Below, one piece after another: positions 1,101-31,175 of a stretch of DNA of 32,676 nt. Position 1 is the stretch's first letter. The number at the start of each line of letters is the position of its first letter. The position numbers and the translations under genes are program-made. Below the pieces are notes generated by a model, which did no database searches, was not told the origin of the DNA, and saw only the letters and a list, made by a program, of their open reading frames with translations. The stretch covers positions 1-32,676 of the forward strand of contig DRLC01000053.1 of NCBI GenBank assembly GCA_011053145.1, given 5' to 3'. Source of the DNA: Planctomycetota bacterium (GTDB lineage: Bacteria; Planctomycetota; UBA1135; GCA-002686595).

Positions 1101-2153
1101 ATGAACCGCATCAGGCCAGGCAGCGTCCCCGGCTGGGTACGTGACGTTTTGCTGAGTCCGGAGAGAGACAAGCCAGTTGTTGCCGTCACTACACCTCCGA
1201 AGAGACGGGATCCCTGGATGGATCCTGAGCTGTTGGAGGCGTCCCTCGAGGGGGCAGCCGATGTCGTCCTCCTCCAGACCGGCAAGGCCACCTGGGCGCT
1301 CGCCGAGGCTCTCCCCGATCGCCTCGATGTGTACGGAGGGGCACTGCGCATCTGGTGGCCGGGCCTCCATCGAGCGTCCGACCCCTACGAGCACGAGCTG
1401 ATCTTCGTCTACGGGGAGGGAGATGCGAAGCGCGCAGCTCGGAAGATCGTGAAGAGCATCCTGGGTGAGTCTGCGGAGCTCTCCGAGGAGCTCGTGAGCT
1501 CCCTCCAGGTCGCTACGGCCGCTCCTCTTGAGCCCAAGCGGCGGGACGGGCGCGAGGGTGGGCCTTCAGATCGAGCGGTCGAAGAACTCGAGGATGAGCT
1601 CAACAGCATGTCTGCCGATCGGAAGAGAGCTCTGGAGGAGAATGAGAAGCTGAGGAAGAAGGTTGCGGAGCTTCGGAAAAAGCTGAAAAGCGTGAAGGGC
1701 CGGCTCGAGAGCAGCAGCGGCCAGGAGGACGATCCCTTGCGGTCCGGGACGGACTTTCTCCTGGGGGTGCGCCTTGCCTATGCGCGCACCCATGATGAAG
1801 GCACGAGACACCAGTATCCCCTCGGAAGAATGCGAGTGGGGCACTCCTTCATGGAATGCCTCCGTGACCTCCAGGGAGTCGAGCTTTCGAAAGTGCTCGA
1901 GGTCTGCGCCCAGGTCGCGTCTGGTATCGCGCACACGATCGCTGGGAGAGAGGTCCACCAACTCCGCGCCGGGCCCGCTGGATCTCGGTCGAGAACGAGG
2001 AAGTCCGACGGCGCACAGGCCTGGCGGTGTGCTCTTCAGACGCACACCCCTGGGGCGCGGAGGCTGCACTGGTGGGCCACTTCTGGTTCACAGGAGCCTA
2101 CCGTCGAGTTCGCATCCGTCGGCCACCACGACGACTTTGACATTCCCGAGTAA
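1101..2153 (+). CDS. Coiled-coil protein of an unnamed family with C-terminal HDDF motif
   Basis: 350 residues, starting at an ATG preceded by GGAG seven bases upstream. Residues ~20-115 form a compact domain with DVVLLQTGKATWALAEALPD and VYGGALRIWWPG. Residues ~158-203 are a strongly charged coiled coil (ELRKKLKSVKGRL). The C-terminal ~130 residues contain an AHTIAGREVHQLR segment and end with WRCALQTHTPGARRLHWW and VGHHDDFDIPE. From memory, this R-R-L-H-x-W plus H-D-D-F ending recurs in uncharacterised proteins, mostly actinobacterial, so the reading frame is probably correct to the end although codon bias weakens there. There is no signal peptide, so it is probably cytoplasmic. Its codon use is less GC-biased than that of neighbours and it sits beside transposase debris, which suggests horizontal acquisition. 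Function is unknown; a nucleic-acid or defence role is possible but unproven. Confidence 0.8.
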   Translation: MNRIRPGSVPGWVRDVLLSPERDKPVVAVTTPPKRRDPWMDPELLEASLEGAADVVLLQTGKATWALAEALPDRLDVYGGALRIWWPGLHRASDPYEHELIFVYGEGDAKRAARKIVKSILGESAELSEELVSSLQVATAAPLEPKRRDGREGGPSDRAVEELEDELNSMSADRKRALEENEKLRKKVAELRKKLKSVKGRLESSSGQEDDPLRSGTDFLLGVRLAYARTHDEGTRHQYPLGRMRVGHSFMECLRDLQGVELSKVLEVCAQVASGIAHTIAGREVHQLRAGPAGSRSRTRKSDGAQAWRCALQTHTPGARRLHWWATSGSQEPTVEFASVGHHDDFDIPE

Positions 2154-2188
2154 CGGAGGTCGGGGCAGGGAAAGGGGTGGTGCGCTCC

Positions 2189-5100
2189 TCATGGTACGCG
2201 GATCGTGATCTCGGTGGTTTCGGCTCCCGTGACGTGGGGGTGGGCGAGTTCGAGGCCCTGAGGGTTTCGCGCGATGTAGTCTCCTTCGGGGAGGCGGTGG
2301 TAGGTCGCGGTGCCGCCGTTGTCGGTCTTGGGGCTCGCGTCCACGAGGCCGTTCGCGGCCCAGGTCGCCACGCTCTTGCCGGTCATCGTGTCGATGAGGT
2401 CGATCGGGACGCCGGAAAGGGGAAGGCCGGAGTCGTCGACGAAGTGAAGGGTGAGGTCGCCGAGGCGGCGCAGGGGAACGGGGAGTGGAGTGGGGTTTGG
2501 GGAGGCGCGGACCTCGAGGGTCTCGGGCCAGTGGGACGGCGCGCTGACGCGGACGCGGTAGGTTCCCGGGCTGAGCAGGGACCAGGTCAGGGTCCCGGTC
2601 GAGTCCGCGCGGCGCCGGGATGGCGTGTACCTGGTCTTCCCGTCCAGGAACACCGCCTCGGCGGAGGGGACTGGGCCCGCGGGGGAGGAGGCGACGAGCT
2701 GGATCGCCGCATTGGCTGCGAGGGTGAGCGTCGGATCGGGCCGGGAGGGATCCAGGTCGACCCCGAGCCGCATGCCGCGCGAATCATGGAAGAGCTCGAT
2801 GCGGACGGGATGGCTGGGGAGGCCGTAGAGTTCGGCGAAACCCTCGGCATCGGTGCGGTAGTGGGGGCCCAGGATCGTGCTCACCGGATCCAGAGCGCGG
2901 ACTTCGACTCCGGCTACGGGGTGCTTCTCGGGGTCGACGACCCGGAGCCGGAAGGGCTCCTCCGAGTCGTCCAGGTCGAGGACGAGTTCGCCGTCCCGGA
3001 AGACGCCCTGGGCCGCCGCCAGGATCGTCCCCTCCATCGAGACGAGGCGCACCCAGACGATCGGCGCGTCGAAGCAATCCGCTTCGAAGCGGCCGTCTTC
3101 GTCGAGCATGCCGAATCGGTACGCCTCCAGACCCTTGGAGGAGCGGTAGCGCACTTCGACTCCGACGCGCTTGTCCGCGGGGAGGACCGCCGGGTCTTTG
3201 GGTTCGAAGTGCACCAAGAGATGGTTGGCTCCCCCGATCGCGACGTCGAGATTGCGCCTCTTGCCGGGCGTCAGCTCGAAGACGACCAGGATCGACTCTT
3301 CATCCTCGTCGTCCCAGCCACCCGCGATCTTCAGAACGTGTCGCCCCGCGGCGACGCCCTCGAAATGCGCTCGTCCACCCGCATCGAAAGGCGTCAGTGG
3401 CAACTCCATCCCCGTCACCTGGCTGTACGCGTGGAACGAGGCGTAGTTCCCCGGGCCGTGAAGCGTCACGTCGAAGCTCTGCAGGGGGGAGAGGTCGATG
3501 CGGATCGGCGGTGCATCGTCCCGAAGGGAATCCGTCACGCGCACGAGGTCATCGGAGTAGTCGTCCGCCGAGACCCGCAGGAGCGTGACGCCGCGCTTCA
3601 TGCCGTCGATTTCGAACGCGCCGGTTTCATCGGTCACGACCGCGGGACCCCAGAAGGCGGCCGGGCCCAGTGCCGTCGAGACGCGCTGGCGGATCCGCGC
3701 ACCGACGATCGGCCTTCCGGTATCGGCGGCGAGGACGACACCGCCGCGCTTGCCGCCATCCGCGAGCTCGAGTTCGACAGGACTGTCCTCGCCTTCGCGG
3801 ACCGTGACGCTCGTGGGGTTTCCAGGCGGGTGCTCCGGGGAGGACGCGATCACGAGGGCCGCTCCCGGCGCGACCCCGTCCAATTCGAAGGAACCGTCCT
3901 CACGGCCCCAGAAATCCTCCGCCGCGTACACCCAGGGGTGTCCCTCGGAAATCGCCAGGACACGGAAGTCGGAGACGGGCTCACCGTGGGACGAAACGGT
4001 TCCCGTGATCCTGCCGGCCCGGTCGAGCGGAATGGTCAGACCCTCTTCGTTGACGCCGATCGAGAAGTCCTGGTCCGGATAGTCGTTGCTGATGTATCCG
4101 GGAGCCTCGATGTGCACGTCGATCGCGGACGACACCTCGTCGGGAAAGGACCAGATGTTGATGTTGCCGTCGGGGCGTGCTCCGCGCGTCACCGAGTGTT
4201 CGGTCCCGTCTTCCTCCCACCGCAAGGTCGCTTCGGAGCCGTGGATGATCTCGCCCTCACGGTTCACCGCGGTGATCCAGATGTTGCGCCCGCGCTCGGC
4301 TCGCAGCTCCAGGTAGATGTGAGCGCCGGTCGCGGGTGCGGCAAAGTCCTCCTGCACGGGAATGATCGGCGAGCCCTCGAGGTAGACGCGGTAGACGGCT
4401 CCTTCGACCCGCGGAAGCCGGATCGGACCCCAGTCTCCGGCCTCGATGTGGCGCAGGATGGTGAGGTTGCGCTCCATCGATCCCTGAAGGAGCGCGATGC
4501 GCATGCGCCGCTCTCCTTCGTAGTGGAGGTCGGACCAGTCGGGCAGGATCACGGTGCCGGAGAGCTCGAAGCTGTCGAGGAGTCGCAGCGTGATGCGTCC
4601 CTGTGGCCTCCCCCGCCAGGGAAGGGAGACAGCGTTCTCCAGGGTCGCGACCAGCGCCTGTTCGCCGTCGAAACGGGGGATGGTGGCGATGCCTACTTCG
4701 TCGGCGACAGCGGTTGCGTGGACGTGGCGGGCCGAGATGTCCTCGGGCCCGATCGCTTGCGGCGCGGATTCCCCCACGCGGGGCGCGATCCCGAACTGTT
4801 CGACCATCGCCCCGGGCGCAGGCGACCCGTCGGAGCGGACGACCGCGACGACGAGCGGATCGGAGTCCGGAAGCACCAGTCGGATCGCACCCTCTTCGCC
4901 GGGCGGATAGGAAAACGTTCCCGAGGCTCGTCCTCGCTCCACGTCGCTCGCCGAGAGCACGAACCGCCCGGTCTCCTCCTCTCCAAGCCAGCGCTCGAAG
5001 GAAAAGCGTCCATCCGAACCCGTCCAGGTCCGCTGCGAGGGGGAGTCCGTCGGCCCCCATTCTCCCTCTTTCCAGGCGGGCTCCCACTCGAGGTCTCGTC

Positions 5101-5413
5101 GCGTGAGAACCGTCATCTCGACCAGGCACCCCGCAACCGGATCGCCGGCGCTGTCCACGACCCAGCCCGTCACGACGGGGGAAGAAACCTCCTCTCTCCT
5201 GGTGGCGGAGTGGGCCTGCGCCTGCGCAGCGGGGGCAGCCTCTTCGATGACCCGGGAATCGGACCTGAGTTCAGGGGCATGCGCTTCTTGCGCGGGACCA
5301 GGCGTCTCGAGGACGGCGCGGCGTCCCCCGTTCGGGAACTTGTTTCGGGTCGTCCACAGGAGCGCGGCGATCAGGACGCCCACGACGAGGACGAGGATTC
5401 TCGACGGTCTCAT
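2189..5413 (-). CDS. Operon A gene 4: membrane-anchored CarboxypepD_reg-repeat protein
   Basis: 1,074 residues starting at ATG 5413. Residues ~5-22 form one hydrophobic N-terminal segment (ILVLVVGVLIAALLW) after two Arg, so the protein is probably anchored with its bulk outside the cytoplasmic membrane. A low-complexity linker (~25-75) is followed by many Ig-like carboxypeptidase-regulatory repeats of the form G-x-V-x-D-x-x-G-x-P-V-x-G and DG-x-F-x-L-x-G, for example GWVVDSAGDPVAGCLVEM and GREDGSFELDGVAPG. There is no peptidase or other catalytic domain. It is a full-length paralogue of the gene at 26146-29364, sharing LEWEP-W-EWG, SLPWRG, LPDWS, YEGERR-RI and LEGSPIIPV in the same order. It is the last gene of operon A, 33 bases after gene 3, and its own ribosome binding site is weak. 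A surface or adhesion role is inferred. Confidence 0.88.
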   Translation of the reverse strand: MRPSRILVLVVGVLIAALLWTTRNKFPNGGRRAVLETPGPAQEAHAPELRSDSRVIEEAAPAAQAQAHSATRREEVSSPVVTGWVVDSAGDPVAGCLVEMTVLTRRDLEWEPAWKEGEWGPTDSPSQRTWTGSDGRFSFERWLGEEETGRFVLSASDVERGRASGTFSYPPGEEGAIRLVLPDSDPLVVAVVRSDGSPAPGAMVEQFGIAPRVGESAPQAIGPEDISARHVHATAVADEVGIATIPRFDGEQALVATLENAVSLPWRGRPQGRITLRLLDSFELSGTVILPDWSDLHYEGERRMRIALLQGSMERNLTILRHIEAGDWGPIRLPRVEGAVYRVYLEGSPIIPVQEDFAAPATGAHIYLELRAERGRNIWITAVNREGEIIHGSEATLRWEEDGTEHSVTRGARPDGNINIWSFPDEVSSAIDVHIEAPGYISNDYPDQDFSIGVNEEGLTIPLDRAGRITGTVSSHGEPVSDFRVLAISEGHPWVYAAEDFWGREDGSFELDGVAPGAALVIASSPEHPPGNPTSVTVREGEDSPVELELADGGKRGGVVLAADTGRPIVGARIRQRVSTALGPAAFWGPAVVTDETGAFEIDGMKRGVTLLRVSADDYSDDLVRVTDSLRDDAPPIRIDLSPLQSFDVTLHGPGNYASFHAYSQVTGMELPLTPFDAGGRAHFEGVAAGRHVLKIAGGWDDEDEESILVVFELTPGKRRNLDVAIGGANHLLVHFEPKDPAVLPADKRVGVEVRYRSSKGLEAYRFGMLDEDGRFEADCFDAPIVWVRLVSMEGTILAAAQGVFRDGELVLDLDDSEEPFRLRVVDPEKHPVAGVEVRALDPVSTILGPHYRTDAEGFAELYGLPSHPVRIELFHDSRGMRLGVDLDPSRPDPTLTLAANAAIQLVASSPAGPVPSAEAVFLDGKTRYTPSRRRADSTGTLTWSLLSPGTYRVRVSAPSHWPETLEVRASPNPTPLPVPLRRLGDLTLHFVDDSGLPLSGVPIDLIDTMTGKSVATWAANGLVDASPKTDNGGTATYHRLPEGDYIARNPQGLELAHPHVTGAETTEITIRVP

Positions 5414-5446
5414 CCGGTGGCGTGCGTGCGCTCCCAGAGCGGAACG

Positions 5447-5620
5447 CTAGAGGCTGAAGAAAACGTTTCGGTCAACCGCGCGGCCCGGTGCGTGTGCGTG
5501 TGGGGGGCCGCCGATCACCTGGGCATGCGACGGCTCGATCACCAGAAAAGGAGCACAAAAGACAAGGACCGCAAGCACCATCCGGACCGAAATACCGCGG
5601 GGTCTTCTAAACCAATGCAT
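5447..5620 (-). CDS. Operon A gene 3: small secreted peptide
   Basis: 57 residues. The ATG at 5620 lies inside the end of gene 2 (14-base overlap) and has AGGAG eight bases upstream. The N-terminus is a clear signal peptide: basic n-region MHWFRRPRGISVR, hydrophobic core MVLAVLVFCAPFLVI, then a probable cleavage site at SHAQ. The mature part would be only about 23 residues, Gly/Pro/His-rich, ending RNVFFSL. The gene at 29381-29563 is its positional counterpart, with the same size, a signal peptide ending in AQ, a short polar mature part and a hydrophobic end (SVWRLL), although sequence identity is low. The shared position, coupling and architecture are the evidence that it is real. It could be an exported signalling peptide, a ligand of gene 4 or a small envelope component. 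Confidence 0.7.
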   Translation of the reverse strand: MHWFRRPRGISVRMVLAVLVFCAPFLVIEPSHAQVIGGPPHAHAPGRAVDRNVFFSL

Positions 5621-6482
5621 CGAATAGACTCCTGGCGACTGTTCCGAGACGTTCGTTCCTGACTCTTTCCTTCATGGGGTGCGGCAAGTTCCAGTGGGCC
5701 GCGTTGCGATCCGCCTGAATCGCCAGCAAGTACCGCTCACGAATCGGAGCGAGCGCCTCTTCGAGTTCGCTCAATTGTTCCGCTGCGGCAAGGGCCTGGT
5801 CGACGTTCCCGACGAGAAGCGACTGCAGGAACCAGTTCGCGGCGGCCGGTAGGACACGTTCGTCGATTCGCGCCGCCGTTCGGTTGTGCTCGAGGGACGA
5901 GGCGTGGTCGCCCACTATGTGGTGGCAGGTCCCGACGACGGTCCATGCCGCCGCGCGATGTCCCGGGCTCGGGCTCCGGTGGGCGAGTTCACCAGCAACG
6001 TCCAAGCTTTCCTGGATCTGCCCCTCGATGCAGCACAGGCTGGCAAGAACGTGCCGAACATCGTCCGAAGGCGACAGCCTCAACGCGATTCGCGCAGCCT
6101 CGGAACCTAGCCCTCCGCGTGGGGTGTCGAGAAGCCATTTTCGTTCCTCCGGCCAGTGCACTCCCCTGGCGGAAGCTGCCAGAGTGCTGCGCCGTCGCCA
6201 GTCCGTTTCCTCGACCGGCTCGCCCTGAAGGATCGTACGTGTCTTCTCCACGGGGCCCTGCAGGGTGAGGAGGCAGCCCTGGTAGAGGAGGAAGGCGACC
6301 TCTTCGCGGTGGTGGCGGAGGAGGTGACGCTCTTCCTTCGAGAGAAATGGGGCGCCGGCGGAGAGAGGCTCCTCGTAGGCGCGTCGGACGGGGAGGCTCG
6401 CGAGGTGATGCAGCGTCGTGGAGTCATCCGCGAGGGCGACCTCGAGCAACGCGCGGACCTCGGGAGCGATCGTGTAGGTCAT
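5607..6482 (-). CDS. Operon A gene 2: helical TPR-like protein with HREEVAF motif
   Basis: 291 residues with no signal peptide or membrane segment, so probably cytoplasmic. The start ATG overlaps the stop of gene 1 as ATGA and has GGAG eight bases upstream, indicating translational coupling. The N-terminal ~75 residues carry PFLSKEERHLLRHHREEVAF followed by LLYQGCLLTLQ; the paralogue at 29541-30431 has PFLSTRERYLVEWHREEVAF followed by VLHQGCRLALQ. The rest is a run of amphipathic helix pairs resembling degenerate tetratricopeptide repeats (for example AAAWTVVGTCHHIVGDHASS). No catalytic motif is visible, and the Cys pattern of zinc-binding anti-sigma factors is absent. A protein-protein interaction role, perhaps as partner of the sigma-like gene 1 product, is inferred from position only. 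Confidence 0.8.
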   Translation of the reverse strand: MTYTIAPEVRALLEVALADDSTTLHHLASLPVRRAYEEPLSAGAPFLSKEERHLLRHHREEVAFLLYQGCLLTLQGPVEKTRTILQGEPVEETDWRRRSTLAASARGVHWPEERKWLLDTPRGGLGSEAARIALRLSPSDDVRHVLASLCCIEGQIQESLDVAGELAHRSPSPGHRAAAWTVVGTCHHIVGDHASSLEHNRTAARIDERVLPAAANWFLQSLLVGNVDQALAAAEQLSELEEALAPIRERYLLAIQADRNAAHWNLPHPMKERVRNERLGTVARSLFDALV

Positions 6483-7210
6483 GGTTGGTTCTCCAAGGTA
6501 CTCTCGCGTCGGAGGAGTTCGTCCAGCATCCCCTCGCGATGTTCTTCACGGGCCAGGCCGAGGAGGAAGAGGGCCTCCCAGAGATCGTCCGCGATTTCGC
6601 GGGCGTCGCCGCCGAACCACTCGGCGGTCTTTGTGAGAGTCCAGCCGTCGAGAACGAGTGCGAAGAAACGGCGGCGGGTACGCTTCGAAAGGTTGTGGAA
6701 GCGCACGGTCGGCTCGTCCATCCGCGCAGGGTCGAGGCGAAGCGTGCGGGCGAGGAACGCTCCGGGGGCCTGGGCAGGGTCGTCTCCACCACCGTTGCGA
6801 ACCCATTCGGCGTCTCGATTGAGGATCCGTGCGAGCGTGCGTTCGAGGCGGCCTGCCAGCCAGCCGTCAACCTCCTCGGGCCGCGGGGCCCTGTCCTCGA
6901 GGCTCATTTCGCAGGCGACCTCGATGATCGCCCCCTCGTAGAGGCGCTGGGGGTCGACGAGCAGGCCTTCGCGGCGCAGAAGGGCGATCGAGCGGGGACC
7001 GAGAGCGAGCGGATCGCTGCTGGCGATGCGGTGCACGGCCTCTGCTTCGCTCAGGCCGAGCAGGGACTCGAGGAACGCGGCTGCCTTTGCCCCCTCCGAT
7101 TCGTCGGTCGGCGCGTGGGGGATGAGAACCCCAGGCCGTGCCCGGTCTGGCCGGTGCGCTGGGCCCTCTCTCGGGGGCGGCGGGGGGTCCTTGCGAGGCG
7201 TGGGGGCGAT
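6479..7210 (-). CDS. Operon A gene 1: divergent sigma-factor-like protein
   Basis: About 243 residues if translation starts at ATC 7210. The only canonical upstream start (TTG at 7270) coincides with a promoter -35 box and has no ribosome binding site, whereas GAAGGAG lies eight bases before the ATC. A Pro-rich N-terminus (~1-40) precedes a helical region with LLVDPQRLYEGAIIEVA. The C-terminus, VRFHNLSKRTRRRFFALVLD followed by AEWFGGDAREIADDLWEALF, resembles sigma-70 region 4 (L-P-x-x-R-x-x-F, then an IA-type helix-turn-helix). The paralogue at 30428-31114 has FNALPQSVR at the equivalent place. Canonical region-2 promoter-melting residues were not recognised, so it may be a degenerate sigma factor or another HTH regulator. 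It is the first gene of the operon. Confidence 0.72.
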   Translation of the reverse strand: MAPTPRKDPPPPPREGPAHRPDRARPGVLIPHAPTDESEGAKAAAFLESLLGLSEAEAVHRIASSDPLALGPRSIALLRREGLLVDPQRLYEGAIIEVACEMSLEDRAPRPEEVDGWLAGRLERTLARILNRDAEWVRNGGGDDPAQAPGAFLARTLRLDPARMDEPTVRFHNLSKRTRRRFFALVLDGWTLTKTAEWFGGDAREIADDLWEALFLLGLAREEHREGMLDELLRRESTLENQP

Positions 7211-7241
7211 GGCGGAGGCTCCTTCTCTCTCAGGGAAAGTG

Positions 7242-7270
7242 AGGATATTGAGGGGGCGGAATCCCGTCAA
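7242..7270 (-). promoter_or_regulatory. Promoter of operon A
   Basis: On the minus strand TTGACG (7270-7265) and TATCCT (7247-7242) are separated by exactly 17 bases, a good sigma-70-type promoter. Transcription would begin near 7235, followed by GAAGGAG and the in-frame ATC at 7210. The distance from the -10 box to the ATC is 31 bases, the same as in operon B, which supports both the promoter and the start assignment. Confidence 0.6.
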
Positions 7271-7587
7271 TGGAGCGGGGCGCGGGAGGGTGGGGCGGGG
7301 CCGGACGTGGAGCAGGGTCGTTCGGAGGAGGTGCGGGGGGCTGCGGGGCAGAAGTCGGGGAACTGCCTGGGCCGGCCCTACCCGGGGCCCCTTCCATGCC
7401 CGTTCCCGGGACTCCGAGAGCGAGATTGATCTGACTCAAGGGGGTCCTTAGTCGGGAAACCACAAGACCTTGGGGCTGGTGGATGGGGAGCCACCACAGG
7501 ATGTTGGATCGGTCGGTGGGGAGTACGCTTGCGGTGGTGGGGCGGTGGGGTTTACACTCGTCGATCCCGAGTCAGGCCCAAGACGGC
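7271..7587. other. Intergenic region between operon A and nrdJ
   Basis: A divergent intergenic stretch of about 400 bases runs from the operon A promoter to the nrdJ start at 7676. It is very G-rich on the plus strand and shows no convincing coding frame. GGGAA near 7452, AGCCACCACA near 7490 and GAGTCAGG near 7570 vaguely recall parts of a cobalamin riboswitch but do not form a convincing match. The only clear structure is the palindrome at 7588-7616, listed separately. Confidence 0.5.
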
Positions 7588-7616
7588 CCTAATTCCTTTG
7601 CCTGAAAGGAATTAGG
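7588..7616. promoter_or_regulatory. Perfect 12-bp inverted repeat in the nrdJ leader
   Basis: CCTAATTCCTTT (7588-7599) and AAAGGAATTAGG (7605-7616) are perfect inverted copies with a 5-base spacer. The element is AT-rich within a very GC-rich region and ends 59 bases before the nrdJ start. There is no T-run after it, so it is not a standard intrinsic terminator. An operator for a dimeric regulator or an mRNA hairpin controlling nrdJ is more likely. It does not match the NrdR box known from other bacteria. Confidence 0.55.
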
Positions 7617-14491: not shown

Positions 14492-14713
14492 ATGTCCACC
14501 TTCGAGAGCATCCCCCTCAGTCCCTTCTGCGTGCGGCTTGCTTCCAAGAAGCTCCTGCTCGACGCGCGACCGCCACGCACCGAGTCCGACCTCCTCGACG
14601 CGAGCTGCCACACCTGGTGCACGAAGACCCAGGAATCGATCGGACCGGACGGCGCACCCACCGACCCCGAGGACTGCCGCGCCGGCCGCTCGTGCTTCGA
14701 ACCCTACAGTTAG
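14492..14713 (+). CDS. Small Cys-rich protein at the end of the molybdenum hydroxylase operon
   Basis: 73 residues, beginning five bases after the FAD subunit's stop. Five cysteines (13, 39, 43, 62 and 68) occur in SPFCVRLASKK, SCHTWCTKTQ, DPEDCRAGRSCFEPY. There is no signal peptide or membrane segment. The pattern looks like a small metal-binding or iron-sulfur-associated protein. From memory, short proteins with the C-W-C-x-K-T and DC-x-x-GRSC pattern are found as hypothetical genes in other bacteria, but no function is known to me. Tight spacing suggests a role with the enzyme, such as assembly or electron transfer. Confidence 0.75.
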   Translation: MSTFESIPLSPFCVRLASKKLLLDARPPRTESDLLDASCHTWCTKTQESIGPDGAPTDPEDCRAGRSCFEPYS

Positions 14714-14717
14714 ACTT

Positions 14718-16913
14718 TTGACGAGCCGGAGGCGTCTCGCTGTGTTCGGGGCCATCCTTCTCTTGGGAGGATGTGCCTGGCTCCTCTTCAGGGGCAGGGG
14801 TGGACTCGGCGATTCCCAGGTGCCGACCCTGAAGCCCAGTCGGCACGAGGAGGGCCCGCGCTCCGGAGTGGATGGTTTGGGGAGCGTCTACCGAGCACGC
14901 ACACCGGTCGAGCCTGGACGGAGCGAGTTGGTTTCGGGCATGGGGCGCGTGTACATCACTGTGGTCGACGCGGACGATGGCACCGCCTTGTCCGGGGTGT
15001 CCGTTCGAATCGATCAGCGCAAGGAGGGGGGTCGGGGGCAGGACGAGCCCCCTGCCCCTGAGAGGATGCGGCGGACCGGGAAGACGGACGAGGAGGGCGT
15101 CTGGGTTTCTCCATGGCCGAGCGGCATCCCCTTTGTCGTTGCGGCCTGGGGATTCGAGGAGGGCATGGGCGATGTTCGGAGCAGCCAGCCGGCCCTGGAC
15201 GTGGGGGAGGAACGTACGGTCGTTCTGGAGGTGCCCGTCGGGTCGGACTTCAGCTTCCACGGGGTCGTCGTCCGTGCGGAGGACGGATCTCCGGTAAGCA
15301 CTGCGGAGGTCTTCGTTCTCTCCGATGAACCGCGAGCCGACGCGACCGTTCCTGTCGTTCCCAGGAGTGCGCTTGCGGACAGTCCTCATGCCGAGTTCCT
15401 AACGGGTGTCGACGAAGGCGGCCTGTTCGAGGTGGACGCCCGTCCGTGGGAACGGCGTGGCATCCTGGAGGATGAGCGCCTGCTCGTGTACGCCGAAGGG
15501 TTCGCGCCAGTGGTCGTTGGGATGACGCCCGACCATCTGACCGTCGAGAGTGCGAGGCGGATCCCGCTCGTTCCCGGAAGCGAGGTCCTAGGACACGTGA
15601 TCGGGGCCGGATCCGCCGGTTTCGTGGAGTTGAGCTGTGAATCCACGACTCTAAGTCTGACCGAGCAGCTCGTGCTCAGAGAGCGACTCGTGTGGAGCGA
15701 TGCGTGGGGGGACGAAGGCGGGTTTTCGATCGGGAACCTTCCCGCGGAGGTCCGTCTCCGCGTGCGGGTGCTCTTCCGGGATGAGAGGGGTGCCCGTCCT
15801 CTTCCATCCATCACCCTGGAGCCAGGCGAGACTCGCATCGTGGAGTGGAACGTCGGAAGCGACACACTCATTCATGGCGTCGTCCTGGACGAGCATGGAG
15901 AGGCCGTTCCCAGTGTCGCGGTGATCGCGATTCCAGTTGCCGCGGGGTTCCCGGAACCCGCCAGCGGGTTCCTGCGGATGGGGCAGTTCTCCACCGAAGG
16001 GGCCCTCGGAACCCGGGCGGATGTGCAGGGCCGCTTCGAGCTTTCGGGGGTCGCACCCGGGTCATGGGTCGTTGGCGTGAGCGATGCGCCTTCTGAGGCT
16101 CAGGTCAGTGAGACCGGGACTGTCCTCGAAGTCCCGGAGGGTGTTTCCGAACTTGAGGTCCGCGTGCCGGTCTTCCGAGACCTCGGGATCTCGGGGGTCG
16201 TTCGGAGCGAGGACGAGGCAGTTCTCGGAGAGGTTCGCGTCTCCGCGATCCCGATTGAGGGGGAGGGGTTTGTGGAGAGTTTGATGGGGGATGACGGCCG
16301 GTTCGACCTCCGTCCCCTCGCTCCCGGACACTACCGTGTCTCCGCGTGGGCCCCAGGTGCGCTCGTTCACTTCGCGTCCACCGAGGTCGAGGCTGGGGAG
16401 CGAGACATCACACTGTGGGCACAGACCGCCGGAGGACTGAGGGGGCGCGTCCTGCTCCCGAGCGGTGAACCCGCTTCGATGGTTTCCGTTCGTCTGACCC
16501 TGGAAGGCTCCCTCGATTCCCTGCGGCTACCCGCCCTCGACGGACAGTTCACCCTTCTTCCAGTTCCACCGGGGACCTACGACCTGATCGTCAGCTCCCA
16601 GGGCCTAGGAGCACTGGCCATCCAGGCGCAGGTGGACGCGGGCCGGGTGAATCAGGTCCCCGACCTTCGACTGGAGCCTGCTGGGAGAGTCTCGCTCCCC
16701 GTCGGAGAGACCTGGCCGGCTACGCGGGCCGAACTCAGAGGTCCCCTAGCATCCTATCCCGTCGACCTCTGGCCGGGGACCACGGCGGTCCTCACCCTAC
16801 CGCCCGGTTCCTACGAGCTGACCATCCCAAGCTCGTCGAGGGAATCCCCGGGGAAGACGTTCACCTTCGTCGTGCACGCAGGAGAAGAGGATCAGCTCAC
16901 GCCAATCCGATGA
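14718..16913 (+). CDS. CarboxypepD_reg-repeat lipoprotein
   Basis: 731 residues from TTG 14718. That start gives a proper signal, MTSRRRLAVFGAILLLGGC, with a lipobox Cys at residue 19; the alternative GTG at 14742 has a better ribosome binding site (GGAGG, nine bases away) but loses the basic n-region. After a short linker the protein is a chain of Ig-like carboxypeptidase-regulatory repeats: VDADDGTALSGVSVRI, GVVVRAEDGSPVSTAEVFV, GVVLDEHGEAVPSVAVIAI, GRFELSGVAPG, GRFDLRPLAPGHYRVSA. No enzyme domain is visible. It resembles the large proteins ending operons A and B in repeat type but is shorter and lipid-anchored instead of TM-anchored. Outer-surface structural or adhesion roles are plausible. 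Confidence 0.82.
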   Translation: MTSRRRLAVFGAILLLGGCAWLLFRGRGGLGDSQVPTLKPSRHEEGPRSGVDGLGSVYRARTPVEPGRSELVSGMGRVYITVVDADDGTALSGVSVRIDQRKEGGRGQDEPPAPERMRRTGKTDEEGVWVSPWPSGIPFVVAAWGFEEGMGDVRSSQPALDVGEERTVVLEVPVGSDFSFHGVVVRAEDGSPVSTAEVFVLSDEPRADATVPVVPRSALADSPHAEFLTGVDEGGLFEVDARPWERRGILEDERLLVYAEGFAPVVVGMTPDHLTVESARRIPLVPGSEVLGHVIGAGSAGFVELSCESTTLSLTEQLVLRERLVWSDAWGDEGGFSIGNLPAEVRLRVRVLFRDERGARPLPSITLEPGETRIVEWNVGSDTLIHGVVLDEHGEAVPSVAVIAIPVAAGFPEPASGFLRMGQFSTEGALGTRADVQGRFELSGVAPGSWVVGVSDAPSEAQVSETGTVLEVPEGVSELEVRVPVFRDLGISGVVRSEDEAVLGEVRVSAIPIEGEGFVESLMGDDGRFDLRPLAPGHYRVSAWAPGALVHFASTEVEAGERDITLWAQTAGGLRGRVLLPSGEPASMVSVRLTLEGSLDSLRLPALDGQFTLLPVPPGTYDLIVSSQGLGALAIQAQVDAGRVNQVPDLRLEPAGRVSLPVGETWPATRAELRGPLASYPVDLWPGTTAVLTLPPGSYELTIPSSSRESPGKTFTFVVHAGEEDQLTPIR

Positions 16914-23859: not shown

Positions 23860-26046
23860 TCACTTCTTCGGGCTCGAGGGTTCGAGGATGTGGATTCCCG
23901 CGCCGGGGGAGGCGAGGAAGACACGGGAGGGGTCGGCCGGATCGAGGGCCAGATCGAGCGCGAATGGCCAGGCGAGGCCGCGGCGGAGCGGGTGCCAGCT
24001 CGCGCCCCGGTCGCTGGATTCCAGCACCCCCGGGGAGCCGGGCTCCCACCCGCCGGAATCGAACGCGCTCGATCCCCCGACGACCAGGTGGTTGGGATGG
24101 AGCGGATCGAGCGCCACCGTGCGGAGGAAGTCCCCCGAGAGCACCTTCGTCCAGGTGGTCCCGTGGTCCGCGCTTTGGAACAGGCCCTTGCCGGTGCCCA
24201 CCGCAGCCACCCAGAGGCCGCCCGGCACGCTGGGGTCGGGTTCGATGTCGAAGACACCCTCCCAGGAGCTGTCGGGCTCCCCGCCCTGCCCTCCGCGCAT
24301 CGCGGCGGTCCCCACCTCCGACCAGCTCCCCGGGTTCCCTCCGGCGAGGGACGCCCAAAGCCCGTCCTCCCCACCGGCGTAAACGATCCCGCTGTCGAAG
24401 CGATCCACCGCCGTGAACCGCAGCCCGCCCTCCACCAGCACCCGGGTCCACGTGTTCCCGTCGTCCGTGCTGCGCCAGACGTCCCCCCCGGCCGTGAGGA
24501 ACAGCGTGCGCATCCCGGGAGGAGATCCAGGGTCGAGGGAGAGGCCGAGGAGCGGAACCGCGGGAAGGCCCGCCCCGACCGCGCTCCAACTCGATCCGGC
24601 ATCTGAACTTCGGAGCAGGGTCATCGGACCGTAGGGATCGTCTCCCTGACCTGCCCACACCACGCCCCACTGCGCCGGGTCGCTCACCACGAACCAACTG
24701 TTGCCGCCGGCTCCCCCCCAGGCGCCGGAATGGATCGCGTCGTTGGCGGCCGACCAGGAGTGCCCCCCGTCGAAGCTGCGCCAGATCCCGAGGTCGAAGA
24801 ACGCGGCGGTGACGAGGTCAGGATCCGCGTCGCTCACATCGATGTCGACGACGACGACGTTGTCGATTCCGGTCGAGCGATAGCGGGGATTCGGGCCCGA
24901 GCCGAGCCGTCGCGTGTAGAGGGGTTCGACGCTCGCGCCGCCATCCCTCGTCCCGAACACGAATTGGGTCGTGACCCACACCATGCGGCTTGCGTCGAGC
25001 GGGTGCGGGGCCAGCGCCCCGTGCAACGACGTCGCGTTGAAGGCCCAAGGGGCTGTGCTCCAGCCGGAGTCCCATGTGGTGACGCTGCTCTTCTTCTGGA
25101 AGGTCCCCGCCGAGCCCCCCTGACTCGACTCGAAGATCCCCTCACGCGGATCCCAGGGATAGAGGTAGCGCGCCTCGATCATTCGGATCGTGCCCGGGGT
25201 CTCGACGTCGAGCCAGATCGCGCCGCCGCGTCGCGCGAGTTCGGTCCAGCTCCCTCCCCGATCGTCGCTCCTGTACAGGTGCCCGCGAGCATCGGGATTC
25301 GGATCGTCGACGGAGCACCAAAGACGCATCGGGTCGAAGGGGTCGAGGGCCACGTCGACGATGCGCCCGCCGAACGTCCCACCGATCGAAACCCAGTGGG
25401 CTCCCCCGTCGTCGCTCCGCAGCAGATCGACGGGACCGGCCCGAAACCTCGAGGAACCGCTGAACGCGAAGAGACGATCCGGGTTGCCGCGGTCCACGAG
25501 CAGCTTCAAGAGGCGCAGGTTCGAAGGCAGATCGATCGAGACGGGCGCCCACGTCACCCCGCCATCCCCGCTGCGTTGCACCGCCGGGTTCAGGGAGTCG
25601 AACCCCGGATGCCACGCCGCATAGACGACGCTCGAGTCCGTCGGGGCCACGGCGATCGATTCGACATATCCGCTCGCGAGGGTGCGGGCAAAGCTCCGAG
25701 CACCATCCGCGCTTCGGAAGACCCCTTGCTCGGTGCCCAGGAACACGATGGATGGATCCGCCGGGTCGAACGCGGCGCACCCCACATGCGTTTCCTCGAG
25801 CCCCCGAGCAGGACCAACGCAGGACCAGTGCGCCCCTCCATCGCGGCTCACGTAGGCCCCCGCCAGATCGCTGCACGCGACCATCGTCCCATCCGAGCCC
25901 ATCCTTATGCGCTCGAACCAACCGCCGCCGCCGACGTTCGCACGCACCCATCCCCTGGCCCTCCCCACCCGCTGGCCGGCCACCGAGGAAGCGAGCGAGG
26001 CGAGCGCCAAGAGACACCATCCAACCGCGCGGAGTCGTCGTTCCAT
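23860..26046 (-). CDS. Secreted BNR/Asp-box beta-propeller protein
   Basis: 728 residues with a signal peptide (VGWCLLALASLASSVAG, residues 8-24). The rest is a chain of about nine BNR/Asp-box repeats, S-x-D-x-G-x-x-W: SRDGGAHW, SGDGGVTW, SDDGGAHW, SDDRGGSW, SFDGGHSW, SSDAGSSW, STDDGNTW, SADHGTTW, SSDRGASW. The spacing suggests one or two seven-bladed propellers, as in GH74 xyloglucanases, sortilin-type and photosynthesis-assembly-like proteins. A GH74 catalytic Asp pair could not be assigned with confidence, so glycosidase activity is uncertain; a binding role is equally possible. There is no C-terminal sorting signal. It lies 99 bases downstream of operon B on the same strand, with no clear terminator between them. 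Confidence 0.85.
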   Translation of the reverse strand: MERRLRAVGWCLLALASLASSVAGQRVGRARGWVRANVGGGGWFERIRMGSDGTMVACSDLAGAYVSRDGGAHWSCVGPARGLEETHVGCAAFDPADPSIVFLGTEQGVFRSADGARSFARTLASGYVESIAVAPTDSSVVYAAWHPGFDSLNPAVQRSGDGGVTWAPVSIDLPSNLRLLKLLVDRGNPDRLFAFSGSSRFRAGPVDLLRSDDGGAHWVSIGGTFGGRIVDVALDPFDPMRLWCSVDDPNPDARGHLYRSDDRGGSWTELARRGGAIWLDVETPGTIRMIEARYLYPWDPREGIFESSQGGSAGTFQKKSSVTTWDSGWSTAPWAFNATSLHGALAPHPLDASRMVWVTTQFVFGTRDGGASVEPLYTRRLGSGPNPRYRSTGIDNVVVVDIDVSDADPDLVTAAFFDLGIWRSFDGGHSWSAANDAIHSGAWGGAGGNSWFVVSDPAQWGVVWAGQGDDPYGPMTLLRSSDAGSSWSAVGAGLPAVPLLGLSLDPGSPPGMRTLFLTAGGDVWRSTDDGNTWTRVLVEGGLRFTAVDRFDSGIVYAGGEDGLWASLAGGNPGSWSEVGTAAMRGGQGGEPDSSWEGVFDIEPDPSVPGGLWVAAVGTGKGLFQSADHGTTWTKVLSGDFLRTVALDPLHPNHLVVGGSSAFDSGGWEPGSPGVLESSDRGASWHPLRRGLAWPFALDLALDPADPSRVFLASPGAGIHILEPSSPKK

Positions 26047-26145: not shown

Positions 26146-29100
26146 TCAGTCGGTCTGGATTCGGAGTTCGACTTCACTCCGTGCGCTCCCCACCACGCGC
26201 GCTTCGCCGAGTTCCTCGCCACCCGCCGCGAAAACCCGGTATTGCCCCTCGGGGAGTCCGTTCAGCTCGCACTCTCCCCGCTCGTCGGTGACGAGGGAAG
26301 CGTCGATTCCTCGGTCTCCCGAAATCCACTCCTGCACCGATTCACCGCTCGCGCCGTCGACGAGCTCCATGCGGAGTCCCGCCACGGCTACGCCTTCGGA
26401 AGAGACGACCCGCAGGCTCAAATCGCCCAGGGCTCGCATCGCGATCTCGATGGGACGGGGGTCGACGGTTGCGGAAACCTCGCGTTCCACCTGCCAGTAG
26501 GAGGGATGCATGATGCGGACCCGGTAGGTGCCGGGGTGGAGCTTGCTCCACGTGACGACGCCCTGCGCGTCCGACGTCTGGCCGGAGTAGTACACCTCGT
26601 TCCCCGCGGTGAGGAGGCGCGCGTTCACGCCGGAGATCGGAGTGCCGTCATGCTGCACGTCGAGTTCGAGCGACGCGGTTGCGGAGAGGACGAGCTCGGC
26701 GCCGTCGTCCTTGCCCGAAATCGGAGCAGCGGTTCGGAACCCGTGGGTCTTGCTGTAGAGGTTGACCTCGACCTCGCGCCGCGGGAGGCCCCGGAGATCG
26801 ATGGTGCCGTCGGCTCCGGTGCTGCCGGAGGCGCCGTAGGCTCCGGTCCTCGGGTCGATGACCATCACGTAGACCGCGGGAAGCGGTTCTCCGTGGTCAT
26901 CCACGACGCGCAGGTGGAAGGGGGTGTCCTCGGCGCTGAGTTCCAGGCTCAGAGTTCCGTCCGCGAAGGATCCCTGGGAAGCTGCGAGGGATTCTCCGCT
27001 GCGCCGGATGGCTTCGACCCAAACCGAAGGCGCGTCGATCCCGTCCACCTCGAAGACACCCTCGGGAGAGAAGGGTCCGACGAGGAGCATGTCCTTGCCA
27101 CCGGGGGTGCGGTAGCGGAGTTGGGCCCACAGTTCGTCGTCGGACCCGGCTATGGAGTCGAGGTCGAGGTGGACCGAGAGTCGGTTCGGGCCGCCGACCC
27201 GAACCGGGACGAGGATGTTCCTGCGGGGCTTCGCGTGGATGTCGACCGAGGCGGAGATGCGATCTCGCGCATTGGGATCTCCGCGTACTTGGATGCGGTA
27301 GTAGCCAGGGCTCGCATCCGGGTATTCGGCAACGCCGTCCGGGCTGAACCACTTCATCGGGAGGGAGCCGGTGGGGCCCTGGCCGGTCGCGTCGAAGCCT
27401 CCGTAGCTTCCGGGGGAGAGACCGGTCAGTTGGATCCGAATGGAGACCGTGCGTTCCAGTGCGACATGGATGGGGCTCTCCGTGAAGCGATCGCCGCCGT
27501 CGACGAGCGTGAGGAAGGTCGCGTAGCCGGGAGCGCTCACTTCGATCGCCGACCTGCCTTCCGGCAGGGCTTCGAGTCGGAACCCGCCGTCGACTCCGGT
27601 CAGGACGTCCGTTCCCCACCAGTTCTCCGCCAGGAGCTGCGCGACCATGCTCCTGCGGATCCGCGCGTGGGGAATCGGCTTTCCGGTCTCGCCGTCCACG
27701 ACCACCCCGCTCCGGGGCCAGCCTTCGCGGAGTTCGATGCGAACCTCGGCTTCCTCTCCTTCCCGGACCTCCACCGCGACGGGATCCGATGGCGGGAGGT
27801 CTTCGGTGGATGCGATCACGAACGCCCTTCCCGCCGGAGCATCGTCGAGTTCGAAGGAGCCGTCCTCCCTCGCGGTGAACTGCTTCGTCGTCCAGCGAGC
27901 CGGGCCGTCGGCGTAGGCGGTCACGGAGAAGTCCGTGACGGGCTCTCCTCGAAAGAAGCACTTGCCCCGGACTCGGGCCGCGGGAACGAGGCGGACCGGG
28001 ATGTGCCCGCCGTCCTCGGGGAGTTCGAACCCGGTGAACTCCTCTGTTGCGTAGCCGGGCGCGCTCGCGACGATGCTGAACGTGACCGGCGGGAGTGACC
28101 ACATGTTCGCATAGCCGTCCGCGTCCGAGTGGCGCGTGACGTGGTTCGGCCGGCCCTCGTACGTCCATCTCAGCGTGACGCGGCTGTCCTCGATCGGCTC
28201 ATTCTCCATGTCCGTCACTAAGACCCAGAGCGGCGTGCCGAGTTCCGCTTCGAGATCCACCCTCGTTTCGTCGTCCGCCGAGGGGACGTCGAAGGAGCGA
28301 CGAACGGGGATGATCGGTGAGCCTTCGAGGTGGACCGTGTAGGTCGCGCCGGGAAGAACGGGAAGCTCCACCGGGCCATAGGGACCGGCATCGACCCCGC
28401 GGAGCGCCGCGAGCTGGCGTTCGATGCCCCCGCGCTTCGCGGTGATCCGAATCCGGCGTTCCCCTTCGTATCCGAGAGAGCTCCAGTCCGGAAGCGAGAC
28501 GAGACCGCTGAGTCTGAAGGTGGGGAGGAGTCGCAGGACCACGCGCCCCCGGGGAACGCCGCGCCAGGGGAGGGACCGGCGAGACCCTTCGCGGGCGACG
28601 AGCACCTGTTCCCCCCCCAATCTCGGGAGCGTGGCGAGGCCATTGCCGTCCGCGATGGTCACGTGCTCGAGATAGCGCCTCCAGGTGCCGGGTCCGCGGG
28701 CGCGGGTTCGGGCTTCTTCCTCCGAGGCGACGCCAAACTGCGAGACCTCCGCGCCGGCGACCGGGACGCCCTGGGCATCGACGACCTGCACCCGCACGGG
28801 CTCAGCAGGCGTGAGCACGAGTCGGATCGGCTCGGCAGCCGCGGCGGCGTCGAACTGGGTCGCCGACGTGGCGTATCCCTGCGCCGCAGCGTCGAGAAGG
28901 CACGGATCTCCCCCCTCTCGCGCATCCGTCGCCGCGAACTGAAAGCCCCCTTCGGAGTCGGTTCGGGTCTCCTGCACCTGCCGATCCACCCGCCCCCACT
29001 CGTCCACCTTCCAGGAGGGCTCCCATTCGAGATCCGCGCCCTCCAGGTGGGTGAGTCTCACCACCGCACCGGCGATCCCCCGTCCATCGGGATCCAGCAC

Positions 29101-29364
29101 CCACCCGCGGAGCGCTGCTTCCGTCTCGAGCGGAGCCCTCGCATCCGCTTTCTGCCCGGGCGTGGAAGCCACGGCCACTGTCTCCTCCGCCGGGGCTCCC
29201 TCGGTCCGTTCACCTTCGACCTCCCGCCCCGCGGAGGGGGTCGCTGGGCGGTTCGGCTCCCTCTCTTGGTTCTTTGGTCGTGTGACGAGGAAGAGGGTGA
29301 GTCCGAGGAGGGCGAGCAGAATCGACAGGAGGAGGGGACCTCTTCCGTGGTCGGTGCGTGCCAC
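26146..29364 (-). CDS. Operon B gene 4: membrane-anchored CarboxypepD_reg-repeat protein
   Basis: 1,072 residues from GTG 29364, which has AGGAG nine bases upstream and lies 16 bases after gene 3. One hydrophobic N-terminal helix (LLLSILLALLGLTLFLV, ~11-27) is followed by a charged linker (~30-85) and then CarboxypepD_reg Ig-like repeats: GWVLDPDGRGIAGAVVRL, VVDAQGVPVAGAEVSQFGV, TAREDGSFELDDAPAGRAF, GVVVDGETGKPIPHARI. It aligns end to end with the gene at 2189-5413 (LEWEPSWK, SLPWRGVPRGR, LPDWSSLGYEGERRIRI, LEGSPIIPV), almost identical in length but clearly diverged. No catalytic domain is visible. It probably projects from the cytoplasmic membrane into the periplasm. Role inferred as structural or ligand-binding. 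Confidence 0.88.
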   Translation of the reverse strand: MARTDHGRGPLLLSILLALLGLTLFLVTRPKNQEREPNRPATPSAGREVEGERTEGAPAEETVAVASTPGQKADARAPLETEAALRGWVLDPDGRGIAGAVVRLTHLEGADLEWEPSWKVDEWGRVDRQVQETRTDSEGGFQFAATDAREGGDPCLLDAAAQGYATSATQFDAAAAAEPIRLVLTPAEPVRVQVVDAQGVPVAGAEVSQFGVASEEEARTRARGPGTWRRYLEHVTIADGNGLATLPRLGGEQVLVAREGSRRSLPWRGVPRGRVVLRLLPTFRLSGLVSLPDWSSLGYEGERRIRITAKRGGIERQLAALRGVDAGPYGPVELPVLPGATYTVHLEGSPIIPVRRSFDVPSADDETRVDLEAELGTPLWVLVTDMENEPIEDSRVTLRWTYEGRPNHVTRHSDADGYANMWSLPPVTFSIVASAPGYATEEFTGFELPEDGGHIPVRLVPAARVRGKCFFRGEPVTDFSVTAYADGPARWTTKQFTAREDGSFELDDAPAGRAFVIASTEDLPPSDPVAVEVREGEEAEVRIELREGWPRSGVVVDGETGKPIPHARIRRSMVAQLLAENWWGTDVLTGVDGGFRLEALPEGRSAIEVSAPGYATFLTLVDGGDRFTESPIHVALERTVSIRIQLTGLSPGSYGGFDATGQGPTGSLPMKWFSPDGVAEYPDASPGYYRIQVRGDPNARDRISASVDIHAKPRRNILVPVRVGGPNRLSVHLDLDSIAGSDDELWAQLRYRTPGGKDMLLVGPFSPEGVFEVDGIDAPSVWVEAIRRSGESLAASQGSFADGTLSLELSAEDTPFHLRVVDDHGEPLPAVYVMVIDPRTGAYGASGSTGADGTIDLRGLPRREVEVNLYSKTHGFRTAAPISGKDDGAELVLSATASLELDVQHDGTPISGVNARLLTAGNEVYYSGQTSDAQGVVTWSKLHPGTYRVRIMHPSYWQVEREVSATVDPRPIEIAMRALGDLSLRVVSSEGVAVAGLRMELVDGASGESVQEWISGDRGIDASLVTDERGECELNGLPEGQYRVFAAGGEELGEARVVGSARSEVELRIQTD

Positions 29365-29380
29365 GTCGACGAACTCCTGC

Positions 29381-29563
29381 TCAGAGTAGTCGCCAGACCG
29401 AGTGTGAGGGGGAGTTCCCCATGCTCTTGGGCAGCCTCATCGGATTGCCCTTCGAGCCGGACTGACCCTGCGCCATCGACGGACCGCACCACCACAGGAG
29501 CACAGCGACCAGTCCCAGGACCCCGGCCAGACGCAGGGGGTTATTCTTGGATCGTGATTGCAT
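29381..29563 (-). CDS. Operon B gene 3: small secreted peptide
   Basis: 60 residues, starting inside the end of gene 2 (23-base overlap). The signal peptide is clear: basic MQSRSKNNPLR, core LAGVLGLVAVLLWW, probable cleavage at SMAQ. The mature part is about 28 residues, Ser/Gly/Pro-rich, with GQSGSKGNPMRLP and an end of SVWRLL. It corresponds in position, size and design to the peptide at 5447-5620, though their mature sequences share little beyond a hydrophobic C-terminus. Retention after duplication argues for a function; signalling peptide, surface ligand or precursor of a modified peptide are all open. Confidence 0.75.
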   Translation of the reverse strand: MQSRSKNNPLRLAGVLGLVAVLLWWCGPSMAQGQSGSKGNPMRLPKSMGNSPSHSVWRLL

Positions 29564-30431
29564 CGATCATCTCTCGAACGGGCTTCCTCAGGTGTTTCCC
29601 TAGGGTCGCAGGAACCTGGATGGGCGTGGCAAGCCAGCGCCCGGACTCCACTTCGGACCTCAGAATCTCAGTGAACGAGATCACGACTTCCATCGGGATC
29701 TCATCCAGAGCGAGGATCCGTTGGGCAGCGGTTTGGATCATCGCGGTGTCCGCTGCGCGGATTGCATGTGCGAGCCAGAACAGGGGGCCGGCAGGTGCTG
29801 GGTCGGCTTCCAGTGCAGACTGGCGATAGGCTTGAAGCGCGTAGTCAGGCCTACCCTGCTGGTAGGCGCAGTTGCCGAGCACACTGAATGCCGCGGAGCG
29901 AAGGTAGGCGGATCGACAGGTGTCGAGAATCCCGTTTGCCGAGGTTTCCGCTTCTTCCCACCGCTCCTCCGCTGCGAGTGCACAGGCGAGGTCCACCCGA
30001 ATCTCGTCTCGGGGTGCGAGGGCGAGAGCGAGGCGGGCCCAGTCGGAACGGAATGAACCCGGTCGGTGATCGGATCGCAGCGCTTGTCTGGCCCTGGCCG
30101 TGTCCTCATGGGGTACAGCGAGGGCACGAGCTCGCTCCCGTTCCCACATCCTTCGGTCGACGGGGGGATCCTCGAACGTCGTTCGTGATTCGACGGGGCA
30201 GCTCTCTTGCAATGCCAGACGGCATCCCTGGTGAAGAACAAACGCCACCTCCTCACGGTGCCATTCCACGAGATACCGCTCCCGCGTGGACAGAAAAGGC
30301 GTGCCGACGCTGACCCTCTCGGGAAATGCCCTCCGGGGCCGCATTCGAGAGATCCGGGTCAGAGTCGCCTCGTCATCCCCGAGGATTTCGGCGAACAGTT
30401 GGAGGACTTCAGGGTGGATGCCTTCTCTCAT
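29541..30431 (-). CDS. Operon B gene 2: helical TPR-like protein with HREEVAF motif
   Basis: 296 residues from ATG 30431, which overlaps the stop of gene 1 as ATGA and has AAAGGAG seven bases upstream; the longer frame to 30530 is a shadow of gene 1. The conserved N-terminal block is PFLSTRERYLVEWHREEVAF with VLHQGCRLALQ, as in the operon A counterpart. Helix-turn-helix repeats follow (LRSAAFSVLGNCAYQQG, DYALQAYRQSALEADPA), typical of TPR folds. There is no signal peptide, membrane segment or catalytic motif. It probably acts in the cytoplasm as an interaction partner of gene 1. Confidence 0.8.
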   Translation of the reverse strand: MREGIHPEVLQLFAEILGDDEATLTRISRMRPRRAFPERVSVGTPFLSTRERYLVEWHREEVAFVLHQGCRLALQESCPVESRTTFEDPPVDRRMWERERARALAVPHEDTARARQALRSDHRPGSFRSDWARLALALAPRDEIRVDLACALAAEERWEEAETSANGILDTCRSAYLRSAAFSVLGNCAYQQGRPDYALQAYRQSALEADPAPAGPLFWLAHAIRAADTAMIQTAAQRILALDEIPMEVVISFTEILRSEVESGRWLATPIQVPATLGKHLRKPVREMIDAITIQE

Positions 30432-31114: not shown

Positions 31115-31145
31115 TGCGAGCCTCCTTCTTCATGCGAGGAGGGAA

Positions 31146-31175
31146 AGGCTAGGGGAAAACCCTGGGAACGGTCAA
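31146..31175 (-). promoter_or_regulatory. Promoter of operon B
   Basis: On the minus strand TTGACC (31175-31170) and TAGCCT (31151-31146) are 18 bases apart. The leader then contains an 8-codon open frame (31133-31107) and GAAGGAGG before the in-frame ATC at 31114. The -10-to-ATC distance of 31 bases equals that of operon A. Confidence 0.5.

Follow-up and report, generated by a model that had tools for sequence, protein, structure and literature searches.

A putative pseudo-sigma protein encoded with a TPR partner, a predicted secreted peptide and a surface repeat protein in one family of Planctomycetota

Sigma factors abound in the Planctomycetota, as do large surface proteins, and how the two are connected is, to our knowledge, mostly unknown. 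The window analysed here (the whole of a 32,676-nucleotide stretch, contig DRLC01000053.1 of the Planctomycetota assembly GCA_011053145.1) carries two copies, operons A and B, of a four-gene operon in which a sigma-like gene (gene 1) is followed by a tetratricopeptide repeat (TPR) gene (gene 2), a gene for a tiny, apparently secreted peptide (gene 3) and a gene for a large membrane-anchored protein with CarboxypepD_reg repeats (gene 4), and it raises the question of what a sigma-like protein does in such company. By comparing profiles, predicted structures and neighbourhoods of these genes, we hypothesize that the operon may be a module for sensing or adhesion at the envelope, with a pseudo-sigma protein and its TPR partner in charge, a reading to which we assign a probability of slightly under one half (about 0.48). 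Throughout one family a recognisable sigma fold is kept with its polymerase and DNA faces reversed, and the operon form, which a genome of these uncultured bacteria often has in several diverged copies, couples this reversed fold to a TPR partner, an apparently secreted peptide and a repeat protein of the surface, in what looks like an undescribed way to link the cell surface and gene control.

Homology of gene 1 to the extracytoplasmic function (ECF) sigma factors is well supported by profile comparison. A profile of 44 gene-1 proteins was aligned by hhalign with one of 31 ECF sigma factors (28 from the home genome and three from sister families, collected by iteration from sigma-domain matches) at a probability of 95.9% and, as the value of a single comparison, an E of 6e-9, over 137 columns reaching from region 2.2 to region 4; the controls, namely the gene-2 profile and three column-shuffled profiles, gave 0.1–0.3%. 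The predicted fold is consistent with this: an AlphaFold2 model of the operon B protein, built from a 13-sequence alignment, has a pLDDT (predicted local distance difference test score) of 86 and a pTM (predicted template modelling score) of 0.80, and sigma factors or sigma-like proteins make up 37 of its first 38 Foldseek matches in the PDB, among them SigH, SigW, RpoE and the sigma-like domain of PhyR. Sequence searches of Pfam, NCBIfam and the PDB put no name to gene 1, and the members of its alignment (alignment A1) have no convincing match to the Pfam or NCBIfam sigma models. With the canonical ECF sigma factors, then, gene 1 shares profile-profile homology and a collinear helical sigma2–sigma4 architecture; it is unlike them in the residues on which ordinary sigma function depends.

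In ECF sigma factors, the D..Q(E/D) motif of region 2.2 contacts the beta-prime clamp helices of the polymerase, while a basic region 2.3–2.4 and a basic sigma4 recognition helix serve promoter DNA. The motif is well kept in our ECF set (D in 25/31, Q in 28/31, E or D in 25/31), whereas in gene 1 the core-binding D..QE has become R..LR: arginine stands at the D site in 39 of 44 proteins, glutamine persists in 2 of 44, and the last position is arginine or lysine in 34 of 44 (arginine in 31). Mean net charge in region 2.3–2.4 is −4.0 for gene 1 against +4.2 for the ECF set, in an alignment on which these charge figures depend and which is ungapped through region 2.2–2.4 and anchored by a shared W-L. 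Region 4 shows a milder shift, to a mean net charge of 0.7 from the 2.4 of the ECF set; three of its positions that are mostly basic in ECF sigma factors drop in gene 1 from 0.77 to 0.41, from 0.84 to 0.39 and from 0.71 to 0. Because core- and DNA-contact positions are charge-reversed, gene 1 does not appear to be an ordinary sigma factor, and these alignments support well that the ordinary function has been lost. The first-pass annotation of the window had called gene 1 sigma-like, which is supported as to descent and not as to ordinary function. A literature search on degenerate or pseudo-sigma factors returned nothing relevant.

The gene appears to be specific to one family and tends to keep its neighbours. 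Its profile has a match in 79/81 genomes of one Planctomycetota family, and in a sample of the phylum, at E<=1e-8, it matched 22/22 family genomes and 0/370 other Planctomycetota; outside the family, nine genomes have weak matches (E 8e-4 to 3e-10), several of which are ordinary ECF sigma factors. A contig scan with a narrower gene-1 alignment gave 11 named loci, nine of them titled Planctomycetota and two just "bacterium". Genes 1, 2 and 4 stand together in 26 of 40 fetched gene-1 neighbourhoods (27 with a better gene-4 profile), and the order that recurs across the family is gene 1, the TPR gene, the tiny secreted peptide and a membrane-anchored CarboxypepD_reg protein of roughly 1,070–1,160 amino acids. 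At E<=3.2e-11, gene 2 has 85 matches in the family, and in 79 cases a listed gene-1 match stands immediately upstream; of the other six, two abut contig ends and four lie in two genomes (G080 and G093), where gene-1 partners were counted only among the matches listed. Counted from gene 1, and again among the matches listed, gene 2 lies downstream in 79/152 and is absent in 73/152. A gene 1 occurring mostly without genes 2 to 4, which the annotation had held would tell against a conserved system, is thus approached in the total and is not what is found for the operon clade, because most of the examined gene-1 copies lacking gene 2 belong to a clade of their own, at a fabI locus.

At this second locus, a FabI-signature open reading frame (ORF) lies on the opposite strand in 9/13 fetched neighbourhoods without a complete operon, with gene 1 divergent from fabI (C317/L090, L080, L084, L086–L089, L091), and 11/12 of the gene-1 copies that we labelled "core" group together in the tree. 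Where the fetched stretch extends that far, a protein of about 900 amino acids follows gene 1; two of these proteins were scanned and gave weak matches to TPR and degenerate ones to sigma-54 activators, with GAF as a further match in one. The acidic region 2.3–2.4 is common to the operon and fabI-locus groups, and the home genome has a fifth gene-1 copy that likewise adjoins fabI (contig C317, L090). The gene queA lies near some of the fabI-type loci.

In the window itself, the two operons have the same strand and the same gene order, as the first-pass annotation had described, and consist of the following features:
7242–7270, minus strand: operon A promoter, sigma-70-like, TTGACG at 7270–7265, 17-nucleotide (nt) spacer, TATCCT at 7247–7242
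6479–7210, minus strand: A1, sigma-fold protein, probable ATC start at 7210–7208 with AAGGAG at 7224–7219 before it
5607–6482, minus strand: A2, TPR protein with an N-terminal ERHLL..HREEVA helix, ATGA overlap with A1
5447–5620, minus strand: A3, predicted secreted peptide of 57 amino acids, starting 14 nt inside A2, predicted mature part QVIGGPPHAHAPGR...
2189–5413, minus strand: A4, 1,074 amino acids, single N-terminal membrane helix and CarboxypepD_reg repeats
31146–31175, minus strand: weaker promoter-like site of operon B, TTGACC at 31175–31170, 18-nt spacer, TAGCCT at 31151–31146
30428–31114, minus strand: B1, sigma-fold protein, probable ATC start at 31114–31112 with AAGGAGG at 31127–31121, alternative TTG at 31081
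29541–30431, minus strand: B2, TPR protein, ATGA overlap with B1
29381–29563, minus strand: B3, predicted secreted peptide of 60 amino acids, starting 23 nt inside B2
26146–29364, minus strand: B4, 1,072 amino acids, GTG start codon, single N-terminal membrane helix and CarboxypepD_reg repeats

The junctions agree with the earlier description in both copies, down to the ATGA joining genes 1 and 2, the start of gene 3 inside gene 2 and the short gap before gene 4 (33 nt in A, 16 nt in B). Homology between the copies, and their strong divergence, also hold: pairwise phmmer comparison of A with B gave E-values of 1.3e-29, 7.9e-33 and 8.6e-195 for genes 1, 2 and 4 at identities of 33, 27 and 35%, and was not significant for the two gene-3 peptides by themselves (0.1).

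The annotation had erred over where gene 1 begins: each of the starts it gave (7270, 31175) is the TTG of a TTGAC promoter hexamer, a −35 box, and the reading frame from 31175 runs into stops. In all four copies of the operon in the home genome (A and B, with C and D on other contigs) an in-frame ATC stands 7–9 nt behind AAGGA or GAGGA, a good Shine–Dalgarno sequence, and TTGAC lies 58–62 nt upstream of that ATC. Few other starts are available. Copy A has as its sole other early candidate the TTG of the promoter hexamer; copy B has the TTG at 31081, behind a weaker GAGG; copy C is without ATG, GTG or TTG before the conserved domain, save for a GTG 7 residues before the DPL motif; copy D has two GTGs further in. 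Gene 1 thus probably starts at ATC in these four related copies of one genome (7210 in A, 31114 in B), to which the claim is limited, and with such starts standard gene callers would miss or truncate it there. A scan with the sigma-70-type consensus found the operon A site as the sole promoter-like match in 1900–7600 and no promoter for operon B. A precedent is Streptomyces sigR, whose GTC start holds the sigma factor below its partner (PMC5472188). As in sigR–rsrA, a sigma gene with a start other than ATG, GTG or TTG lies here upstream of a coupled partner gene (PMC5472188), with the differences that the codon is ATC, and read from sequence, and that the partner is a TPR protein instead of a zinc anti-sigma factor. 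The AUC start codon probably keeps gene 1 scarce relative to gene 2.

Duplication of the operon had been claimed from A and B, which are real; the count has to be raised, as the home genome (4.05 Mb in 400 contigs) contains four complete copies, C being located on contig C4 and D on contig C179. The four share 27–50% identity in gene 1, 27–38% in gene 2 and 35–45% in gene 4, and they are a lineage-specific clade, grouping together with Shimodaira–Hasegawa-like approximate likelihood ratio test (SH-aLRT) support of 99 in the gene-1 tree and 100 in the tree of genes 1, 2 and 4. The copies of three other genomes also cluster (three in G016, two in G026 and two in G032, these last together with near relatives). 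By these trees, which were made quickly and have long end branches, amplification of the whole operon therefore seems to have occurred several times independently.

The home genome and its sister families also contain proteins in which sigma factor and exposed repeats are joined. An ECF sigma factor and a membrane helix share one reading frame in L125, L127, L129, L130 and L134 (sister families) and in L140, L141, L143, L150 and L152 (home genome; L140 stops at a contig edge and L152 starts within the sigma part), followed, where the fetched stretch extends far enough, by carboxypeptidase-regulatory-like repeats, judged by eye and gene-4 profile instead of a Pfam scan. The D..Q motif is present in their sigma parts where these were read. 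Such fusions, which are the single-chain counterpart of genes 1 and 4, suggest that the sigma and the exposed repeat protein share one pathway. The gene-4 profile matches 3/10 fusion fragments (L150, L134 and L130; E 5e-26 to 5e-19). Specific derivation of gene 4 from the fusions was considered and set aside: because that profile also matches a further CarboxypepD_reg protein encoded in the window (E 8e-14), common descent is established no further than the type of domain. Published sigma factors that are joined to a membrane helix and a periplasmic domain are ECF48, ECF52 and ECF53 (PMC8999054). What is shared with them is the link from a sigma part to an extracytoplasmic domain; the operon differs in being split over genes 1 and 4, with the TPR and peptide genes between, and in having a CarboxypepD_reg array as its exposed part.

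As for the remaining genes, gene 2 encodes a TPR protein by both profile and fold (Foldseek returns TPR proteins for a model with pLDDT 76), with a conserved N-terminal ERHLL..HREEVA helix. Pfam gives essentially TPR alone with no recognised anti-sigma domain, and alignment A2 of these proteins has no conserved HxxxCxxC; the proposal that gene 2 might be a recognisable anti-sigma factor was accordingly dropped, since Pfam and the Foldseek structure search both lead to TPR proteins. In another genome (G027, L019 188–2412), a canonical ECF gene is followed directly downstream by a TPR protein that has an N-terminal HxxxCxxC anti-sigma-like motif and a TPR part matched by the gene-2 profile; this is a lead, and not evidence on gene 2.

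Gene 3 is conserved and coupled: an ORF with a signal-peptide-like start, as called by our own simple rule, lies at the gene 2 stop in 28/30 operons and at 1.6% of random positions in the same loci, the commonest start being 13 nt ahead of the final base of gene 2. Among the 28 peptides (A3–D3 and 24 others), [AP]Q..[GS] follows the signal in 19/28 and proline stands at the end in 15/28; cleavage at [AP]Q..[GS] would leave an N-terminal glutamine on the mature peptide. From residue 31 on, the peptides are 16% proline and 14% glycine, and in L063 (3038–4109), L066 and L071 two or three gene-3-like ORFs stand in tandem between genes 2 and 4. For gene 4, the N-terminal membrane helix and (by Pfam, in A and B) the CarboxypepD_reg repeats bear out the first description; a hydrophobic helix lies near the N-terminus in 30/30, and three have a further weak hydrophobic stretch. 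Where an ORF was delimited by its stop codons at both ends, the N-terminal boundary of the protein is uncertain. The PADLOC defence-system models gave no match.

How might these parts work together? In the mechanism we propose, two translationally coupled cytoplasmic proteins (genes 1 and 2) would be produced alongside two exported products, namely a secreted peptide rich in Gly and Pro and a membrane-anchored protein with immunoglobulin (Ig)-like repeats. Gene 1 would no longer bind core RNA polymerase in the usual way and would act through protein contact with gene 2, as a pseudo-sigma under the control of its TPR partner; the peptide may bind the gene 4 surface protein as a ligand or belong to it as a subunit, and the two exported products would determine the state of the two cytoplasmic proteins, much as the exposed part might do within the single-chain sigma fusions. 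Most likely, the pseudo-sigma and its partner respond to, or control, the peptide and the surface repeat protein, where the contacts and the direction of the signal are what we infer. From the interpretation first put on this locus, then, the homologies, export signals and neighbourhood carry over, and the ordinary sigma and anti-sigma roles do not. If true, this would show a sigma factor rebuilt into a different type of regulator, and would offer a testable route by which the cell surface could act on gene control. A more specific version we regard as unlikely: a charge-inverted pseudo-sigma class found across the family would have ceased to read promoters and become a contact switch paired with the TPR protein, controlled from outside the cell by a secreted peptide of the cell's own making and its surface receptor, multiplied by duplication of the whole operon and, in the home genome, held scarce by AUC. 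Several points weigh against the sensing or adhesion module. The contact between genes 1 and 2 is assumed from their coupling and from the TPR fold; gene 4 has few cytoplasmic residues, which leaves the step of the signal across the membrane unexplained; the domain types that link the operon to the fusions are present elsewhere in the genome too; a gapped-dyad search for a consensus promoter across the operons found none above shuffles; and the best Foldseek E for gene 1 is 0.05, with none below 0.001 and with low whole-chain TM-scores, the last being expectable because the relative placing of the two domains varies.

Gene 1 may instead be a working, if unusual, ECF sigma factor that uses another core and promoter interface, with gene 2 as its TPR regulator, and that controls surface genes. 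Its complete sigma2–sigma4 architecture and its non-ATG start, which resembles that of sigR (PMC5472188), speak for this, as does the precedent of ECF42, whose C-terminal TPR extension controls the sigma part and is thought to act by protein contact (PMC8999054). Like ECF42, the operon combines a sigma part with a TPR part; unlike ECF42, the TPR is a separate gene (with a 4-nt overlap in the four home copies), the sigma is degenerate, and exported genes follow. The reversal of the D..QE charges in nearly all 44 sequences, the acidic region 2.3–2.4 and the depletion of some basic sigma4 positions are hard to fit to such a factor, as are operon promoters that look housekeeping-type in the four home copies and the failure to find a common upstream dyad across the operons, and we consider it unlikely.

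A sigma fold without core-binding residues is what a mimic would need, and genes 1 and 2 could form a switch like PhyR, in which gene 1 competes for the partners or regulators of the sigma–membrane helix–repeat proteins of the home genome, which would be its candidate clients. The principle of the PhyR partner switch, a sigma fold without promoter activity of its own, would be the same; unlike PhyR, neither gene 1 nor gene 2 has a receiver domain, no NepR-like gene was found and the phylum is different, and with the shared partners and the mimicry both hypothetical we hold this to be rather unlikely. Least probable to us is an operon that mainly builds a surface structure from the peptide and the Ig-repeat protein, with genes 1 and 2 as non-signalling helpers in assembly or expression. 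The exported products do make up the larger part of the operon, such repeat proteins are often structural, and some operons have tandem extra peptide genes; yet gene 1 descends from a family of transcription factors, and it is found again at a second locus, where its neighbour is a degenerate regulator resembling sigma-54 activators.

Two further genes of the window were noted. A BNR/sortilin-like protein is encoded on the minus strand at 23860–26046, on the same strand as B4 and 100 nt downstream of it, and is possibly co-transcribed with operon B; A4 is not followed by a gene of this kind. In the stretch that separates the operons, on the opposite strand (14538–16913, plus), lies a further CarboxypepD_reg protein with a membrane helix.

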